Part shown: positions 44,669 to 52,712 of the stretch, piece by piece
Numbering within the stretch: the stretch's first letter is position 1
Layout: each line of letters begins with the position of its first letter
From: an uncultured Bacteroidales bacterium
GTDB lineage: Bacteria; Bacteroidota; Bacteroidia; Bacteroidales; Bacteroidaceae
Direction of reading: 5' to 3'
NCBI GenBank assembly: GCA_902784475.1
Contig: CACZUX010000001.1
Span: 1-53,068, forward strand
Length of the DNA stretch: 53,068 nt
Notes under the pieces: model-generated
Database searches by the model: none
Seen by the model: the letters and a program-made list of their open reading frames with translations, nothing else
Told to the model about the DNA's origin: nothing
Made by a program: the position numbers and the translations under genes

Positions 44669-45586
44669 TAAACCTTTTTTAACATAAGCCCAATTTTGTC
44701 CGTTTTTAAACATCTAAAATTATATTTTAACATCGAAAACCTCTAAAGGCTCTAAAATAAACCACGAATCTCACTAATCTCAGCCTCTTTACAGAGTCTC
44801 ACATACAGTCAAGAGAAAAACATTAAAAACCGTCACGTGTGGCATTATACTGCCCCAACGGGGCTATATAACTTAGCGCAGGGCCTCGGTCCTGTGTAAA
44901 TTAATTGAAATCGATGCAATTCATTAATGAAAACGATTGAATTCATTAATGAGTGCGATAAAAGTCGTTAATGAATCGGATTCCGTGCATTAGTGCCACT
45001 TATGTCAACTTTGTTAGTAAATTGTCAACTGTTTTAGTAAAAGGCAACCCTGAATTTGATTGAACGGCTCTCTGAGGAGCCCATTCAACAAAAACAAGGG
45101 TTAAGAGAGAATGATTCAACTTTTCTTAGTGATAAGAGTGCTTTGTTTGCACGAAAAAATGCTCACGCAAACTACGCAAATTGCAAGCAAATAACTATTT
45201 TGTCAAGATTTCGGATTTTGAAACACGTATAAACGCGCCAATTTTGTAAAAGCTAAATGCTTGATAATCAATATCGTGCTGCTCGCTTACCCCCCAATCA
45301 GATACCACGCAGAGACCACGCTTCCTTCGACCAGAGACCGTGAAAGCGGGTTTGGATGTCAAATTTTACGTGTACTCTGACTGGTGGGTCACAATTTGCA
45401 ATTTGCAATTTGCGTAATTTGCGTGAGCATTTTTTAAGCAAATTACGGCGGTTTCCTGAATCAGTTGACACAATCAAAAATGTCGTACTGGATTTGTTGA
45501 CAACATTTTTTCATTTTTGCATTTTCGTTTTTTTAAAATTAAGTGAGGAATTATTGATTTCTTTTGTCAAAGTCATGAACTTTTTG
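44669..45586. other. Long repeat-rich intergenic region before the restriction operon
   Basis: About 0.9 kb with no convincing gene. It holds the dispersed TAACATCGAAAACCTCTAAA sequence (44729), two ATTCATTAATGA-type units (44918 and 44940) with an inverted match TTAATGAAT (about 44968), a paired GTCAACTxTGTTAGTAAA-type repeat (about 45005-45045), and the 30-bp inverted repeat at 45154/45406. Base composition is much AT-richer than the genes on its left. It probably marks the edge of an acquired segment. Confidence 0.7.
45154..45435. repeat. 282-bp element bounded by a 30-bp inverted repeat
   Basis: Left arm 45154-45183 (AAAAAATGCTCACGCAAACT...) and right arm 45406-45435 are inverted copies with one mismatch. 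Three CAATTTG heptamers (45392-45412) lead into the right arm. No open reading frame of note is inside. It could be a small non-autonomous mobile element or a foldback regulatory structure. Confidence 0.85.
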
Positions 45587-45634: not shown

Positions 45635-47083
45635 ATGCAATACGAATCTATATTCAACGCCATTGACAACATCCTGCGCAACGAGGCTGGATGTTCTACC
45701 GAATTGGACTATATTGAGCAGACCTCATGGCTGCTCTTCCTCAAATACCTGGACGACCTCGACCGGGAGCGTGAAGACAAAGCGCTCCTGACGGGAAAGG
45801 ATTTCAAGCCCATCATCACTGGTTATATGCGATGGAGCCAATGGGCTGCACCGAAAACGAAGGACGGGGAAATTGACACCGTGAACGCGATGACGGGCCC
45901 CGACCTCACAAGGTTTGTGGATGAAAAGTTGTTCCCCACGTTGCGTGAGTTTCAGCGTACGGCCGCGAGTGCCAAGACGCTGGAATACAAGATTGGCGAG
46001 ATCTTTGCCGAGCTGCGCAACAAGATTACCAGCGGCTATAACTTGCGCGAAATCATCAACCTCATCGACCAGCTTCACTTCCAGAGCGCCGACGATCAGC
46101 ATCAGATGACGGTGCTCTATGAGTCGAAGATTGCGAAAATGGGCAATGCTGGCCGTAACGGCGGCGAATATTATACGCCCCGTCCCCTCATCCGCAGCAT
46201 CGTCCGCATGGTGGACCCGAAGATTGGCGAGACGGTATATGACCCCGCCTGCGGCAGTGCAGGCTTCCTTTGCGAGGCTTTCACCTACATGAACGAGAAG
46301 GTAAAAAGCACGCACGATGCCAAGGTGCTCCAGGAAGAGACATTCTTCGGGAAAGAGAAAAAACCTCTGCCTTATATCATCGCCACGATGAACATGATTT
46401 TCCATGGATTGCGTGCACCCAACATTGTGCGCGGCAACACATTGGCAGAGAACCTCAGCCAAATACAGGAGAGTCAGCGTAAGAACGTCATCCTGGCCAA
46501 TCCTCCTTTCGGCGGTGCAGAGCGCGGCGAGGTGAAGCAGAACTTCGACATCACTACGGGTGAAACGGCCTACATGTTCATGCAGCACTTCATCAAGATG
46601 CTGAAGGCTGGTGGTCGTGCCGGCATTGTCATTAAGAATACATTCCTCTCCAACGGCGATGCGTGGGAACTGCGCCGCATGCTCCTGCAGCAGTGCAACT
46701 TGCACACGATTCTCGACCTCCCGAGCGGAGTCTTTCAGGGCGCCGGTGTGAAGACTGTGGTACTGTTCTTCGACAAAGGCACTCCTACGGACAAGATATG
46801 GTATTATCAGCTGAATCCCGGTCGCAATCTCGGCAAGACTAATGCGCTTAACGAGAAGGATTTGGCCGACTTCGAGCGCCTCTTTAAGACGCGAGAAGAC
46901 AGCGAAAACTCCTGGACGGTAGACGCTGCTTCATTGAACGAGGATTACGACCTCTCTGTGAAGAATCCCAACAAGGTGGAGGAAGTGGATGAGCGCACAC
47001 CCAGCGAGATTGCGCAGAGCATATTTGACCTCAATAGTGAGAATCAGGCTCTTATTAACGAAATCATGGAGATGGTGAAATGA
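45635..47083 (+). CDS. hsdM: Type I restriction-modification methyltransferase subunit
   Basis: 482 residues. An N-terminal helical domain (NILRNEAGCSTELDYIEQTSWLLFLKYLDDLD in parts) precedes the N6-adenine methyltransferase core: SAM motif DPACGSAGF (about 204-212) and catalytic NPPF (about 289-292), with GRNGGEYYTPRPLIRSIV before it. It methylates adenine at the site chosen by HsdS. The 4-bp overlap with hsdS (ATGA) fixes the operon order. Confidence 0.96.
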   Translation: MQYESIFNAIDNILRNEAGCSTELDYIEQTSWLLFLKYLDDLDREREDKALLTGKDFKPIITGYMRWSQWAAPKTKDGEIDTVNAMTGPDLTRFVDEKLFPTLREFQRTAASAKTLEYKIGEIFAELRNKITSGYNLREIINLIDQLHFQSADDQHQMTVLYESKIAKMGNAGRNGGEYYTPRPLIRSIVRMVDPKIGETVYDPACGSAGFLCEAFTYMNEKVKSTHDAKVLQEETFFGKEKKPLPYIIATMNMIFHGLRAPNIVRGNTLAENLSQIQESQRKNVILANPPFGGAERGEVKQNFDITTGETAYMFMQHFIKMLKAGGRAGIVIKNTFLSNGDAWELRRMLLQQCNLHTILDLPSGVFQGAGVKTVVLFFDKGTPTDKIWYYQLNPGRNLGKTNALNEKDLADFERLFKTREDSENSWTVDAASLNEDYDLSVKNPNKVEEVDERTPSEIAQSIFDLNSENQALINEIMEMVK

Positions 47084-48258
47084 AAGAAGTAAAATATGTA
47101 GTACCTCTAAAAGATGTTTGCCTTGATTTTATCGTTCCTCAGCGCGATAAACCCACAGCATTTGATGGAAGTATTCCATGGTGTCGAATAGAGGATATCG
47201 AAGGGCGTTATCTCAACGGGTCGAAGTCTGGTCAAAATGTAACAAAAGAACTTGCAGACCAAATGAACATGCACTTATGTCCTAAAGGAACAGTAATCAG
47301 TGCATGTAGTGCTTCTATAGGTAATCAGGCTATCACGACAACAGATTGTTATACAAATCAAACTTTTATAGGACTTGTAGTAAACCCAAATTTGCTATAT
47401 AATGTCTATTTATATTACTTCCTTGAATCTCAGACAAAGAATCTTTTAAAACTTGGTCAAGGAGCCACAATTAAATATATTTCCAAAGATAAGTACAAGA
47501 GGATGTTAATCCCCCTTCCTCCTCTCTCTGAGCAACAATCCATCGTTGATTATCTTGATTCTGCTTTTGCGAAGATTGATGCCTTGAAAGCCAATGCTCA
47601 GAAACAACTCGATGAAGCCAAAGCCCTCTTCCAAGCATCACTCAAAGAAATGCTTGAACCAAAAGAAGGGTGGGAGGAGAAAACTCTAAAGGATATGGGA
47701 CAGACCCAAACAGGAACTACTCCATCAAAATTTGACAAGTTAAATTATGGCGATTATATAGAGTTCATTAGGCCTTCGGAAATAGATTGCGATGGTAATG
47801 GTAGGATTAATTATAACTGCGAGATAAAATTGAGTGAGCAAGGTGCCTCAAAAGGAAGAGTCTTTGCATCAAACTCTATCCTTATGGTTTGTATTGGTGC
47901 CACAATAGGTAAAGTAGGATTCAGCACAAAGGAAGTCTCTTGCAATCAGCAGATAAATGTATTTACGCCCAAAGATGACTTAAATTATAAGTTTGTCTAT
48001 TATGCTATGAGATCGCCTTCTTTCCAACATAGAGTAATAAAAGAGGGCACAAGTTCTCAAGCAACTCTCCCTATTATCAACAAAGGTAAATGGGAGCAAC
48101 TCTCAATTAGTTTTCCCAAAATTAAAGAGCAGGAAGTCATTGCCTCTCACCTCGATAATCTCTCCTCAAAGGTTTCAGATTTAAAAGAGAACTTCGACAA
48201 GATTTCCCAGGAGTGTGACGCATTGAAACAGGCAATATTAAGAGAAATATTTGAATAA
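47080..48258 (+). CDS. hsdS: Type I restriction-modification specificity subunit
   Basis: 392 residues. Two target-recognition domains (about 5-150 and 200-350) are each followed by a conserved helical spacer: LPPLSEQQSIVDYLDSAFAKIDAL (in parts) after the first, KIKEQEVIASHLDNLSSKV and ECDALKQAILREIFE after the second. The TRDs are AT-rich compared with hsdM, as is usual for swapped TRDs. It determines the bipartite DNA site. The last about 20 codons recur downstream after each of two cargo genes. Confidence 0.95.
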   Translation: MKEVKYVVPLKDVCLDFIVPQRDKPTAFDGSIPWCRIEDIEGRYLNGSKSGQNVTKELADQMNMHLCPKGTVISACSASIGNQAITTTDCYTNQTFIGLVVNPNLLYNVYLYYFLESQTKNLLKLGQGATIKYISKDKYKRMLIPLPPLSEQQSIVDYLDSAFAKIDALKANAQKQLDEAKALFQASLKEMLEPKEGWEEKTLKDMGQTQTGTTPSKFDKLNYGDYIEFIRPSEIDCDGNGRINYNCEIKLSEQGASKGRVFASNSILMVCIGATIGKVGFSTKEVSCNQQINVFTPKDDLNYKFVYYAMRSPSFQHRVIKEGTSSQATLPIINKGKWEQLSISFPKIKEQEVIASHLDNLSSKVSDLKENFDKISQECDALKQAILREIFE

Positions 48259-48262
48259 TACC

Positions 48263-49414
48263 ATGAAATTCCCTACATTTCCAGCTATATATTTTGCAAT
48301 CAAAACAAAAGGATCGTCACTTATTCTAGCTTGTGGGCATGGATGGGCGTGTTTTCTTTCTTTTGCTATAACAATATTGTTGTCTTTTTACATTTATTGG
48401 TTATATGAAGTTCCTCTATATTCAACAGAATTAAGAGTGAATAAGATATATGATCAAGCAGGTGACGAGCATTTTACCAATATCAAATTCGGGTTTGATT
48501 ATGGCATGGGGTTAGTAGAAAAATACAAAATTGATACTATCAATTATATAAGTTCTATCAGGATAACAACCTTGAGAGATACGTTTGATAACGAGCTCTG
48601 TCCTAGTAATGTTGCCGATATAGAGTTTGCAGACCCAGACTATATGGATTCCATTAGAAGTATATGGAAGAAGAACGGAAATCCTGAGAGTTATATAAGT
48701 ACAAATAGAATCTCCCCGATGTTTTTTATACATAAAAAAACAAATGTTCCTCCTCGCACATATTTAAGAAGAACCCCTCCATCGGATGTTTACATTTTGC
48801 CTACCCAAAAATATAGCATTAACTCTGCCCCCTCCATAGTAACATATGAATATGCTCAGACGAACAGAATAGACACCGCATGGTCAATATATTACTACAA
48901 ACCTTGTAAAGTTAGTAATTCATTTAAAGGGGGAGAAATAAACGCCTCTGCCTATATTGGCACTAATCGTATGGGTAACTCTGTAGAAATTGATTTGTGC
49001 TCACAAACAAATACTGTCAAGCCTGCTATTTATACTCCATACGATATTTCTCAAGGATATTTTCATTATAAATTAGATTTCCCTACTACAGAACGTCATG
49101 CCTCAACAGTAGAGATAAACTTTGGTGGAGCAAGTGAGATTTTAGGAATATCACCTCAACCTGATAGTATAACATTCACCTCCATTATCTTTAATAATCC
49201 CCAAAAGATTGACGAGATAAGAAAAAATGGTTTATGGTTTCATGCTCAGTTTAGACAGCAGGAAAACCTTCAGGTTTTAAGAATGTTTGTAATAACAACC
49301 CTCTGGGGATTCTTTGTCGCGTTGACATTCTCCTCCGGTTGGAAGGCTCTTAGAGTTAGGAGCAGAAGATTTCGACTGAATCAACGGAAAGAAAGAAAAA
49401 TAGAAGAATCATAA
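48263..49414 (+). CDS. Cargo gene 1 in the hsd operon: two-helix membrane protein, unknown
   Basis: 383 residues from ATG 48263, 4 bp after the hsdS stop. A membrane helix near residues 22-48 (CFLSFAITILLSFYIYWLY) and one near 340-362 (MFVITTLWGFFVALTF) enclose about 290 residues that look beta-rich, probably periplasmic, with a short basic tail (RVRSRRFRLNQRKERK) likely on the cytoplasmic side. I do not recognise the family. Base composition is AT-rich and unlike hsdM and hsdR. Directly after its stop comes a copy of the hsdS 3' end. Confidence 0.75.
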   Translation: MKFPTFPAIYFAIKTKGSSLILACGHGWACFLSFAITILLSFYIYWLYEVPLYSTELRVNKIYDQAGDEHFTNIKFGFDYGMGLVEKYKIDTINYISSIRITTLRDTFDNELCPSNVADIEFADPDYMDSIRSIWKKNGNPESYISTNRISPMFFIHKKTNVPPRTYLRRTPPSDVYILPTQKYSINSAPSIVTYEYAQTNRIDTAWSIYYYKPCKVSNSFKGGEINASAYIGTNRMGNSVEIDLCSQTNTVKPAIYTPYDISQGYFHYKLDFPTTERHASTVEINFGGASEILGISPQPDSITFTSIIFNNPQKIDEIRKNGLWFHAQFRQQENLQVLRMFVITTLWGFFVALTFSSGWKALRVRSRRFRLNQRKERKIEES

Positions 49415-49416
49415 AT

Positions 49417-49503
49417 ATGAACGAAGCGCAGACACGATTCAATAAGGTATCTCTAGAGTGTGACGCCTTGAAACAAGCAATATTAAGAGAAACGTTTGAA
49501 TAG
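49417..49503 (+). pseudogene. hsdS tail, copy 2 (28-codon remnant)
   Basis: A short frame (ATG 49417 to TAG) 2 bp after cargo 1. Its last 24 residues (TRFNKVSLECDALKQAILRE in part, then TFE) align without gaps to the hsdS C-terminus (NFDKISQECDALKQAILREI in part). The match ends exactly at the hsdS end. It is a remnant of another hsdS gene or a duplicated junction, possibly still translated. Confidence 0.88.
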
Positions 49504-49518
49504 GTAATAGACTGCAAG

Positions 49519-50184
49519 ATGAAACGCATTATTGTCGATAATCTGAAGATCCAGAATAACGGACTTGTTTGTAAGGATAAGTCTGGTCGCTATAAACCTG
49601 TATTCAAGAAGCAGGGCGACTTGGACGGCGCTTGCGCTACCTATTCTGTTATCATGAATCTCTTGATTCTTGGCGTCATAACAGAAAAGGAAACTAACGT
49701 CAATGAAGAGCATAAAACAAGAGATACGCGAAAACTCTTCAAGGTCTTCTGCAACGACTATGGAATGCACCGTAATGGACAGACATACTACAAAATCACA
49801 CGGATGTTGAAAGAGGGCTTCTCTAACGTAATCACTCCTGACCACAAATTAACGTCTGATATCAAAAGCATTGAGATTATTAAGGAAACAATTGATGACA
49901 GAATCCCAATTATTATCTCAATAGGCGACACTTCTCCGAAATCTGATTGGGGACACGCGATGCTGGCGATTGGATATGAAGTAAACGAAAAGGGGGATGT
50001 AAGTAAGATTCTTTGCCTTGATCCCAGCGGAGACTACATACATGGCCGGAAACGCTGGAACGCAGAAATACAAATCACTCCAAAACAATATAGACTAACA
50101 ACTGTTTGGAGTGGGTTGAAGACTACGAGAATAGTGACACTTGATGATGTCATTATTATCTCAAAAAATGAAGACGAGGATTGA
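49519..50184 (+). CDS. Cargo gene 2 in the hsd operon: papain-fold (C39-like) cysteine peptidase, putative
   Basis: 221 residues. A papain-type triad can be read: Q32 and C39 in KQGDLDGACATYSVIMN, H146 in DWGHAMLAIGYEV, D168 in ILCLDPSGDY. No signal peptide or membrane helix, so it is likely cytoplasmic. The family resembles small C39-like peptidases with a DG-x-C-x-x-Y-S start; the precise family and target are unknown. Its stop codon (50182-50184) is formed inside the third hsdS-tail copy. Placement in the operon suggests an accessory defence role, but this is inference. Confidence 0.7.
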   Translation: MKRIIVDNLKIQNNGLVCKDKSGRYKPVFKKQGDLDGACATYSVIMNLLILGVITEKETNVNEEHKTRDTRKLFKVFCNDYGMHRNGQTYYKITRMLKEGFSNVITPDHKLTSDIKSIEIIKETIDDRIPIIISIGDTSPKSDWGHAMLAIGYEVNEKGDVSKILCLDPSGDYIHGRKRWNAEIQITPKQYRLTTVWSGLKTTRIVTLDDVIIISKNEDED

Positions 50185-50216
50185 AACAAGCAATATTAAG
50201 AAAAGTATTTGAATAG
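50181..50216 (+). pseudogene. hsdS tail, copy 3 (11-codon remnant)
   Basis: TTGAAACAAGCAATATTAAG and the following bases read LKQAILRKVFE-stop in the frame beginning 50181, the same as the hsdS end but shorter at its 5' side. The junction with cargo 2 lies at about 50180. It ends 6 bp before hsdR. Confidence 0.88.
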
Positions 50217-50222
50217 AAATAT

Positions 50223-52712
50223 ATGGACGAAACAGCCACCAGAAGAAAGAAGATAGACCCTGCGCTCTATGCCGTAGGATGGGAGCAGGTGCCTGAGTCG
50301 GAGATACTGACGGAACAGCGCGCCTATCTCACTCCGGGACAGGTGTCTTCGGTGCCCCAGAACCGTCACCCCAAAAAGGCAGACTACATCCTGGAGTACA
50401 AAAAGAAGAAACTGGCTGTCATTGAAGCCAAGAGCGACGAGAAGCATGTAAGCGAAGGCATTGAGCAAGCCAAACTCTACGCCGAGTTGCTGCACATCCG
50501 CTACACCTATGCCACCAACGGAGACCAGATATGGCAGATAGACATGGGCGTGAAGGACGAGAACGGAACCTATCTCGTCCCCTCCACAGAAGGCCCGGTG
50601 GATAAATTCCCCACGCCGCAGGAGTTGTGGCAGATGACCTATCCCGAGCACAACGTGTGGCGCGACCGCTTCAATGCGTGCCCGCTGAACCGAGGCGGAG
50701 GGAGAGAACCACGCTACTATCAGGAAATCGCCATCGACCGCGTGCTGGAGGCAGTAGCCAACAACAAGAAGCGCATCCTGCTGACAATGGCAACGGGAAC
50801 GGGTAAGACCTATACCGCATTCCAAATCTGCTGGAAGCTCTACACAACGAATTGGAACACACGCGGTACAGACAACAAGCCTCGTATCCTCTTCATCAGC
50901 GACCGCAACATCCTGGCCAATCAGGCCAAGAACGACTTCGAGCAATTCCCCGAGGATGCAATGGAGCGCGTGACGCCCGACCTCATCCACGACAAGAAAC
51001 ATCGTGACCATCTGCCGACGGCGCGCCATCTCTACTTCACCATATTCCAGACAGTGATGTGCGAGGATGCTAGCGGAGAGCCGTTTTACAAGCAATGGCC
51101 GAAAGACTTCTTCGACTTCATCATCATCGACGAGTGCCACAGAGGCGGCGCCAACGACGAGAGTGAATGGAGAGAGTTGATGGAGTGGTTCAGCGGTGCC
51201 GTGCAGCTGGGTATGACGGCAACGCCGCGTCGTGTGGTCAACGCCAACACCTATCTCTATTTCGGCAACCCCGTATATTCCTATTCGCTGAAACAAGGCA
51301 TCGAGGATGGCTTCCTGACGCCCTTCCGCGTGAAGATTGCGACGAGCAATATCGACACCTATCAGTATAACCCCAACGATGACGTTGAGGGCGACATCGA
51401 TAACGAAAAAGTCTACACGGAGCAAGATTTCTATAATGGCAACATAGAGCTGCGCGAACGCGACGAGCATCGCGTGAAGGAGTTGCTCGGGCAGATTCAT
51501 CCGGACGAAAAGACTATTGTTTTCTGTGCAACACAAGAACACGCCAAGATAATCTGCGCCATGATCAATCAGCACAAAAAGCGCCCCGACAGCAACTATT
51601 GTGAGCGTGTTACTGCTGATGACGGAGTGGACGGAGAGCGGAAGCTCAAGCAGTTCCAAAACAACGACCTGCTGCGCCCCACCATTCTCACCACTTCGCA
51701 GAAGCTTTCTACTGGTGTGGATGCACGCAACGTGAGAAACATCGTGCTGTTGCGTCCGGTTAACAACATGGTGGAGTTCAAGCAGATTCTCGGACGAGGC
51801 ACCCGACTCTTCGACGGCAAGTATTTCTTCACGCTCTACGACTTCGTGGGTGCGTCGAAGAGATTCGAGGATGACGATTGGGACGGTGATCCCTTCTGTC
51901 CCGTCTGCGGCAACTATCCCTGTTCTTGCGGCAAACCGTATGACGAATTTGATGACGGGAACCCGGATGGCGCGGAAGAAGGCGGCGAGGAATATAAGCC
52001 AAGACAACCGAAGCCCTGTCCGGTGTGCGGCCATCTGCCTTGCACGTGCGAAGGCAATGGCGGAGGGAAGAAGGACAAAATCGTGGTGAAACTTTCGCCG
52101 TTGCGCGCCATATCGCTCTACACCCAATGGCATGAACGCGTGCAGTTTGGTGACGAGCTGATCACGATGGAGCAATATATAGAGAAGCTGTTTGGCGCGC
52201 TGCCTAAGTTCCTCGACGGAGCGGACGACCTGAGAGGGCGTTGGGCACAGCCCGAAACGCGAAATGAGCTACTGAGCCTGCTGGAACGAAGCGGCTTCCA
52301 GGAAGATAAACTGGAACAGGTGAAACGAATGCTTCGATTGGAGGAGTGTGATATGCTGGATGTGCTGAGTTATCTGGCCTACAACACGACGCCGATAGAG
52401 CGCGAACGCCGTGCAGAGCTGCTGCGCGAAGAGATGAAACAGAGGCTCAACGAGGAGCAGCAGGACTTCTTGAACTTCATGCTCAACCAATACGTGCTCA
52501 ACGGCTACAAGGAGTTAGACCCCGACAAGCTCGGCACACTTCTCGACATGAAGTATCGCACCATCACCGATGCTAAGGTACATCTGCAAATGGACCCGAG
52601 AGAGATACGCCAGTTCTTCCTTGATGTTCAGAAGGAATTGTACGACGGAAAGTGTGTGCTGAACGCAACGTCTGCAGGCAGACTTAACGGCAAAACAAAT
52701 CTGCTCATATAA
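50223..52712 (+). CDS. hsdR: Type I restriction endonuclease subunit (EcoEI-like)
   Basis: 829 residues. N-terminal nuclease domain with D54 and E68-A69-K70 (the PD...ExK signature), then an SF2 motor: Walker A TGTGKT (191-196), DECH (303-306), TATPRR, and QILGRGTRLF (motif VI). Between motor and C-terminal domain there are two knuckles, CPVCGNYPCSC (about 559-569) and CPVCGHLPCTC (about 599-609), separated by an acidic Gly-rich stretch. The C-terminus is helical, as in EcoEI-type HsdR. It moves along DNA and cuts unmodified DNA. GC content returns to that of hsdM. Confidence 0.95.
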   Translation: MDETATRRKKIDPALYAVGWEQVPESEILTEQRAYLTPGQVSSVPQNRHPKKADYILEYKKKKLAVIEAKSDEKHVSEGIEQAKLYAELLHIRYTYATNGDQIWQIDMGVKDENGTYLVPSTEGPVDKFPTPQELWQMTYPEHNVWRDRFNACPLNRGGGREPRYYQEIAIDRVLEAVANNKKRILLTMATGTGKTYTAFQICWKLYTTNWNTRGTDNKPRILFISDRNILANQAKNDFEQFPEDAMERVTPDLIHDKKHRDHLPTARHLYFTIFQTVMCEDASGEPFYKQWPKDFFDFIIIDECHRGGANDESEWRELMEWFSGAVQLGMTATPRRVVNANTYLYFGNPVYSYSLKQGIEDGFLTPFRVKIATSNIDTYQYNPNDDVEGDIDNEKVYTEQDFYNGNIELRERDEHRVKELLGQIHPDEKTIVFCATQEHAKIICAMINQHKKRPDSNYCERVTADDGVDGERKLKQFQNNDLLRPTILTTSQKLSTGVDARNVRNIVLLRPVNNMVEFKQILGRGTRLFDGKYFFTLYDFVGASKRFEDDDWDGDPFCPVCGNYPCSCGKPYDEFDDGNPDGAEEGGEEYKPRQPKPCPVCGHLPCTCEGNGGGKKDKIVVKLSPLRAISLYTQWHERVQFGDELITMEQYIEKLFGALPKFLDGADDLRGRWAQPETRNELLSLLERSGFQEDKLEQVKRMLRLEECDMLDVLSYLAYNTTPIERERRAELLREEMKQRLNEEQQDFLNFMLNQYVLNGYKELDPDKLGTLLDMKYRTITDAKVHLQMDPREIRQFFLDVQKELYDGKCVLNATSAGRLNGKTNLLI

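Follow-up and report, generated by a model that had tools for sequence, protein, structure and literature searches.

The window analysed here, the whole 53,068-nucleotide (nt) stretch of contig CACZUX010000001.1 (assembly GCA_902784475.1, ~81% complete) from an uncultured Bacteroidales bacterium (Bacteroidaceae), carries a type I restriction locus of the EcoAI type, in which two cargo genes lie between hsdS and hsdR and each is followed by a copy of an hsdS 3' end. The genes hsdM, hsdS and hsdR are all complete and run in the same direction, on the forward strand, as do the features between them. The methyltransferase subunit gene hsdM (45635..47083) encodes 482 amino acids (aa; N6_Mtase, 2e-61; HsdM_N, 2.7e-09), hsdS (47080..48258) encodes 392 aa with two Methylase_S stretches (1.5e-49), and hsdR (50223..52712) encodes an EcoAI-type subunit of 829 aa (NF046051, E 4e-216) belonging to the MDETATRRKK subtype. 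Cargo 1 (48263..49414; 383 aa, no known family) is followed by copy A (49417-49503), composed of an hsdR 5' end of the MNEAQTRFNK subtype (49417..49449) and, in frame with this hsdR start, an hsdS 3' end (49438..49503). Cargo 2 (49519..50184; 221 aa) belongs to a C39-like cysteine-peptidase family, with a Peptidase_C39_2 match at E 0.001, below the family cut-off, and takes its stop from copy B (50181-50216; match 50180..50216), the final 36 bases of an hsdS. The order of the locus is M-S-cargo1-R'/'S-cargo2-'S-R, which resembles parts of three S...R units joined together.

Both tail copies are real. A repeat search of the window yielded a 65-nt family at 48193, 49438 (83%) and 50151 (60% over 65 nt), the true match of the last being its final 36 nt. 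The best ungapped matches to hsdS tails of other loci are 32/36 bases for copy A and 34/36 for copy B, and the best hsdR-head match in the gap is 28/30, whereas 300 dinucleotide shuffles of the gap gave maxima of 25/36 and 23/30, respectively; the tail-copy matches are far above the chance level. The presence of hsdS 3'-end pieces behind both cargo genes, claimed in the original prediction, is thereby borne out, and so is its statement that the copies end at the same base of the hsdS stop region (TAA in hsdS, TAG in both copies) with the next start codon 4-15 base pairs (bp) further on: the distance to the next ATG is 4 bp from hsdS to cargo 1, 15 bp from copy A to cargo 2, and 6 bp from copy B to hsdR.

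The whole of copy A had been taken for an hsdS ending, which is correct for its right part; the part from 49417 to ~49446 is an hsdR start, and this rules out a pure hsdS copy. Its bases 1-30 agree with hsdR starts of another subtype (MNEAQTRFNKIDPKLRDAGWG; L011, L012, L013 and L119) at 27-28/30 positions (33-base match to H_L155o, query positions 1-33, 90.9%, E 7.8e-08) and with hsdS tails at 8-13/30 among the 12 best listed. Conversely, bases 31-60 agree with the four full-length hsdR genes of L011-L013 and L119 at 5-6/30, and the final 57 bases with hsdS at up to 48/57 (L047 hsdS tail, 84.6%, E 1.4e-15); the hsdS part is ~57-65 nt long. Copy A (scar A) is a chimera of an hsdR head and an hsdS tail, R'/'S, in frame and joined at FNK. 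The bases 49438-49449 (FNK) are compatible with both parents, and by eye TTTAACAAGAT stands at the joint in both the L013 hsdR start and the L047 hsdS tail, the parents of the scars being stand-in alleles picked as best matches.

Copy B (scar B) is an hsdS end set on the last codons of cargo 2, whose TGA stop (50182-50184) falls within the copy; it matches the L147 hsdS tail at 97.2% over 36 bases (E 7.6e-11). The same joint occurs in a genome of another genus (G377, locus L104), where a relative of cargo 2 with 88% aa identity, the only close one found among 399 genomes, has a complete hsdS in front of it and, behind it, a short piece of hsdS tail that overlaps its stop codon. Between the window and G377, DNA identity is 85.8% for cargo 2, 69% for hsdM and 67.5% for the hsdR start, which suggests that the cargo-2 stretch was not simply inherited along with its neighbours. 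Related loci with the same cargo but lacking tail copies would count against the original prediction, and here the outcome is mixed: the G377 locus has the tail copy, but the tail peptide of the window matches nothing (E ≤ 1e-4) in the contexts of nine more distant cargo-2 relatives, whose hsd genes are of other families.

The tail copies are probably scars of spliced hsd loci, left by illegitimate, unequal exchange, and not sites at which recombination is directed. Unequal exchange between two S...R stretches, or a deletion within a tandem pair, leaves just such a mark: the head of the downstream gene, hsdR, in front of the tail of the upstream gene, hsdS. The composition of the joints is observed directly, whereas the involvement of at least two hsd loci and the order of events are inferred. 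The incoming DNA would begin within the 3' end of the hsdS of a second hsd locus, bringing S tail, cargo and R, and would be joined behind the resident cargo, in or near the start of the resident hsdR. The exchange, unequal or illegitimate, may in one case have been aided by the short shared sequence TTYAAYAAG (FNK), and would not require a site-specific recombinase. The product would keep one intact M, S and R and gain the cargo of the newcomer, so that cargo genes stack; two such joints, R'/'S after cargo 1 and cargo 2 to 'S, would give the order seen in the window. The earlier suggestion that additional hsdS genes disappeared and left their tail behind comes close to this evidence, although the chimeric scar A indicates that an hsdR was truncated as well.

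Related loci were surveyed by a scan for hsdR relatives, which gave 49 loci, many of them labelled as rumen Bacteroidales. An hsdS and an hsdR start are both present in 44 of these (L068, L069, L071, L077 and L081 were dropped for lack of either), and with nine loci from family searches and the window itself 54 loci were compared; L149, L150 and L158 were treated as repeats of L038, L035 and L066, whose contigs have the same lengths. More than 100 bp separate hsdS and hsdR in 28 of the 54 loci (window included), not all with a clear gene there. Among the cargo named by Pfam in this interval are Fic, RhuM, Abi_2, T5orf172, Mrr, a UvrD-like helicase, a Schlafen AlbA_2 domain and an RNA polymerase alpha C-terminal domain, the last carried by a gene at 6185-6661 of L048. 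Convincing hsd scars are found in three of the 28: the window, L104 and L066. The order in L066 is hsdS, cargo, a 112-nt hsdR head (92%), a degraded hsdS tail, a helicase cargo and hsdR; the joint between its two cargos thus has the same order as scar A, hsdR head and then hsdS tail.

The original prediction proposed hsdS 3' ends as recombination sites through which cargo enters, and suggested testing whether genes between hsdS and hsdR in related loci are each flanked by a tail. As a general rule this fails, since 25 of the 28 cargo-bearing loci have no convincing copy and the joints fall at differing places of the tail in scar A, scar B and L066. A stricter version, in which hsdS tails are attachment sites, holds that a cassette with its own tail enters the hsdS 3' end, so that hsdS is made whole again and the former tail comes to lie at the distal end of the cassette, as with elements that integrate into the 3' ends of genes. 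It would account for the hsdS tail pieces that flank cargo 2 on both sides in two genera (window and G377) and for tails that form direct repeats with the same end base. However, a constant core is lacking (the joints lie at FNK in scar A, at TTGAAACAAGC in scar B and at CATCGCTGAG in L066), scar A includes hsdR, and most loci have no copies; moreover, none of the five proteins that the locus encodes matches a recombinase or integrase family in Pfam, a search that did not extend to integrases that might act from another place. We consider this explanation highly improbable.

The tails could also have been retained for their usefulness to the gene that follows, as sequence for translation initiation or coupling. 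The short distances to the next start codon are similar to those of loci without cargo, in many of which hsdS and hsdR are -1 to 13 bp apart, but the 25 loci with a wide hsdS-hsdR gap manage without an extra tail copy, and usefulness would account for the retention of the tails and not for their origin; this explanation is unlikely.

Several observations weigh against splicing as the source of the scars. The 25 scarless loci imply that most cargo arrived in another way, or that the scars are gone. Microhomology is not general, because the joint of L066 has only ~1 nt of common sequence (by eye), and the longest word common to the hsdR head and hsdS tail within single loci is ≤9 nt, the parent alleles being stand-ins. 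A tandem arrangement of two complete hsd loci was not observed, and most of the named loci come from metagenome assemblies. If every event brought a new hsdR, frequent disagreement between hsdM and hsdR would be expected; their identities correlate at 0.95 over 1176 locus pairs, which speaks against free swapping of hsdR, and the window-L047 pair is low for hsdR (-2.3 standard deviations) but not unique. As proof of splicing, hsdR swapping was considered and found to be weak only.

Two further joints in the group count in favour of splicing, and one other irregular hsd end was encountered. In L064 (2619-3017), ahead of the complete hsdM, an hsdM head of ~43 codons runs (by eye) into the 3' part of an acetyltransferase-like neighbour that has been duplicated, a joint of the tandem-duplication type. 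A decayed copy of an hsdR head lies at 2592-2682 of L156, ~340 bp upstream of hsdM and behind a gene that is Fic-like by eye. The hsdS of L033 (9937-9995) seems, by eye, to be cut short by a tandemly repeated CAATATTAAGA in the tail; the sequence with which such genes usually end follows just downstream, out of frame.

A search of 399 family genomes with an hsdS-tail profile (alignment A1, E ≤ 1e-10) gave 25 matches: the frames that hold 20 of them are 371 aa or longer, and those of the other five do not exceed 54 aa. Scar B and its equivalent in G377 have weaker scores and are left out of this count. The five short-frame matches are scar A and one each in genomes G030, G060, G294 and G372. 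Within the four stretches read around the latter (L144, L145, L146 and L148) there is no hsdM or full hsdR, and each consists of a short hsdS tail (~57-130 nt), cargo and a short hsdR head (~30-112 nt); the contig ends ~380 bases upstream of the tail in L146 and ~260 bases behind the hsdR head in L144. Genome-wide, G030 and G294 give no hsdM or hsdR match of this type and G060 only its hsdR head; G372 has a complete hsd locus on another contig. The cargo is Mrr in G030 (by Pfam) and toxin-antitoxin-like pairs in the other three, of which only a ParE-like gene in G294 is named by Pfam and the rest were assigned by likeness and by eye. Under splicing followed by loss of the rest of the locus, a bare S tail-cargo-R head would remain, perhaps with the cargo (toxin-antitoxin pair, mrr) retained. 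The four stretches count in favour of this explanation, as does the match of the G030 unit (L145) to an hsdS-mrr stretch of G001 at 82.5%, with a further match to the hsdR head of the G001 locus. Beyond the family, the tail profile matched three of 295 order-wide genomes at E ≤ 1e-4; except for scar A of the window, every match falls within a full-length hsdS gene (frames of 391-399 aa). Weaker relic matches in L151 (E ~2e-4), in the window at 50083 (H_L033, 8e-5) and in G173 (5e-6) were taken as chance.

As a control for selective survival of tails, profiles of the hsdM start, the hsdM end and the hsdR start were run over the same 399 genomes. Copies in frames of at most 80 aa (E ≤ 1e-8) number 1/23, 0/22 and 2/22, respectively, against 5/25 for hsdS tails at E ≤ 1e-10, the hsdR heads being undercounted, since the control profile does not cover the MNEAQ subtype of hsdR and fails to detect heads that are 10-14 codons long. 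The scarcity of short control copies is suggestive only, given the small numbers.

Type I loci with several hsdS genes exist, and the copies might accordingly be remnants of a multi-hsdS locus in which a complete extra hsdS behind each cargo decayed in place, hsdR being uninvolved. A pneumococcal example with three hsdS genes provides a precedent. The hsdR start within scar A speaks strongly against such decay, however, and the profile search (E ≤ 1e-10) showed no tail of intermediate length. Extra hsdS genes with recombining repeats, as in phase-variable loci, were not found either: hsdS is the only PF01420 gene (n=1) of the ~81% complete assembly. In-place decay is therefore very unlikely to be the origin of the copies.

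The stand-alone relics bear on a further possibility, namely that S tail-cargo-R head is itself a mobile unit that passes between hsd loci and other sites, possibly as a circle closed by an R'/'S chimera. All four units are short at both ends, and that of G030 (L145) sits between two genes that in G218 are neighbours 383 bp apart, with neither the unit nor hsd genes between them (empty site). For L148, the three nearest relatives share its surroundings on one side only. However, the unit ends vary, neither a circle nor a recombinase was seen, and the small internal gaps of L146 and L148 look like decay, which they appear to favour over clean cassettes. A mobile unit in this sense seems improbable. 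A broader reading is tentative and rather unlikely: the hsdS 3' end and the hsdR 5' end would serve as interchangeable arms of a transferable cargo unit, which would move between type I loci and other chromosomal places and stack by R'/'S joints, so that defence loci gain and shed passengers without a recombinase.

The following comparisons draw on excerpts of the cited papers. Defence genes lie between hsdS and hsdR in the case of DarTG2 of enteropathogenic E. coli, at a site termed a potential recombination hotspot (PMC12255303), and tgvAB and rloF are defence genes embedded in a type I operon (PMC11411939). These share with the window cargo in, or in a place like, the hsdS-hsdR interval; the excerpts describe neither hsdR-head/hsdS-tail scars nor a joint that reveals the addition of cargo. 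In the hsd loci of Campylobacter jejuni, too, variable genes (rlo and mlo) are set among the hsd genes, before or after hsdS (PMC5183652, citing Miller 2005); the excerpts describe no scar there. The prrC gene is embedded as cargo in the EcoprrI type IC locus, similarly to the window, with the difference that PrrC is held by the type I enzyme complex, whereas no such hold is known for cargo 1 or cargo 2 (PMC3874165). The pneumococcal tvr (SpnIV) locus, a phase-variable type I locus, is also rearranged through recombination, by excision and reintegration; there the rearrangement serves phase variation of specificity, whereas the locus in the window has a single complete hsdS and encodes no recombinase (PMC6265443). 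With the varied Pfam cargo of the surveyed loci, the hsdS-hsdR interval is a busy one, as in other bacteria (PMC12255303, PMC11411939, PMC5183652, PMC3874165). Among the open-licence PubMed Central papers listed by the literature searches, no title or abstract opening mentions hsdR-head/hsdS-tail chimeras, which is not proof of their absence, and the excerpt of PMC13356809 contains nothing on hsdR/hsdS chimeric joints. Cargo between hsdS and hsdR is thus already known; the chimeric joints and the stand-alone relics appear to be new. The excerpts leave it unclear how defence genes enter and accumulate in type I operons. Each chimeric hsdR/hsdS joint preserves a legible trace of a single event, and any collection of genomes can be scanned for such joints, which point to splicing of loci and not to insertion at a special site. 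The stand-alone relics may mark cargo that has outlived its restriction system, a route to accessory defence genes outside hsd loci.

Cargo 1 gives no match in Pfam, PADLOC, NCBIfam or PDB sequences and has hydrophobic stretches near both ends (by eye). No relatives were found in 119 other genomes, in the 49 hsdR-relative loci or on the plasmids searched. Cargo 2 has no PADLOC match; its relative in G377 passes the Peptidase_C39_2 cut-off, and the family alignment has invariant Q32, C39, H146, D168 and N181, which we take to be the papain-like catalytic set. Relatives of cargo 2 lie ~1.5 kb or less from hsdM-like genes in eight of the ten contexts fetched, one of them the G377 locus (loci noted: L104-L110, L112 and L113), and the family may be an unrecognised accessory of restriction systems. 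A relative with 50% identity is found in a viral (IMG/VR) contig (L103, 1872-2531), and one with 30% identity on a Prevotella plasmid, near a DEAD-helicase gene and adjoining a Sir2-family gene. Upstream of hsdM the window contains a 33-nt inverted repeat (97%) at 45154-45186 and 45403-45435, with 216 nt between its arms; its sequence occurs at four places in the assembly and is therefore a dispersed repeat.

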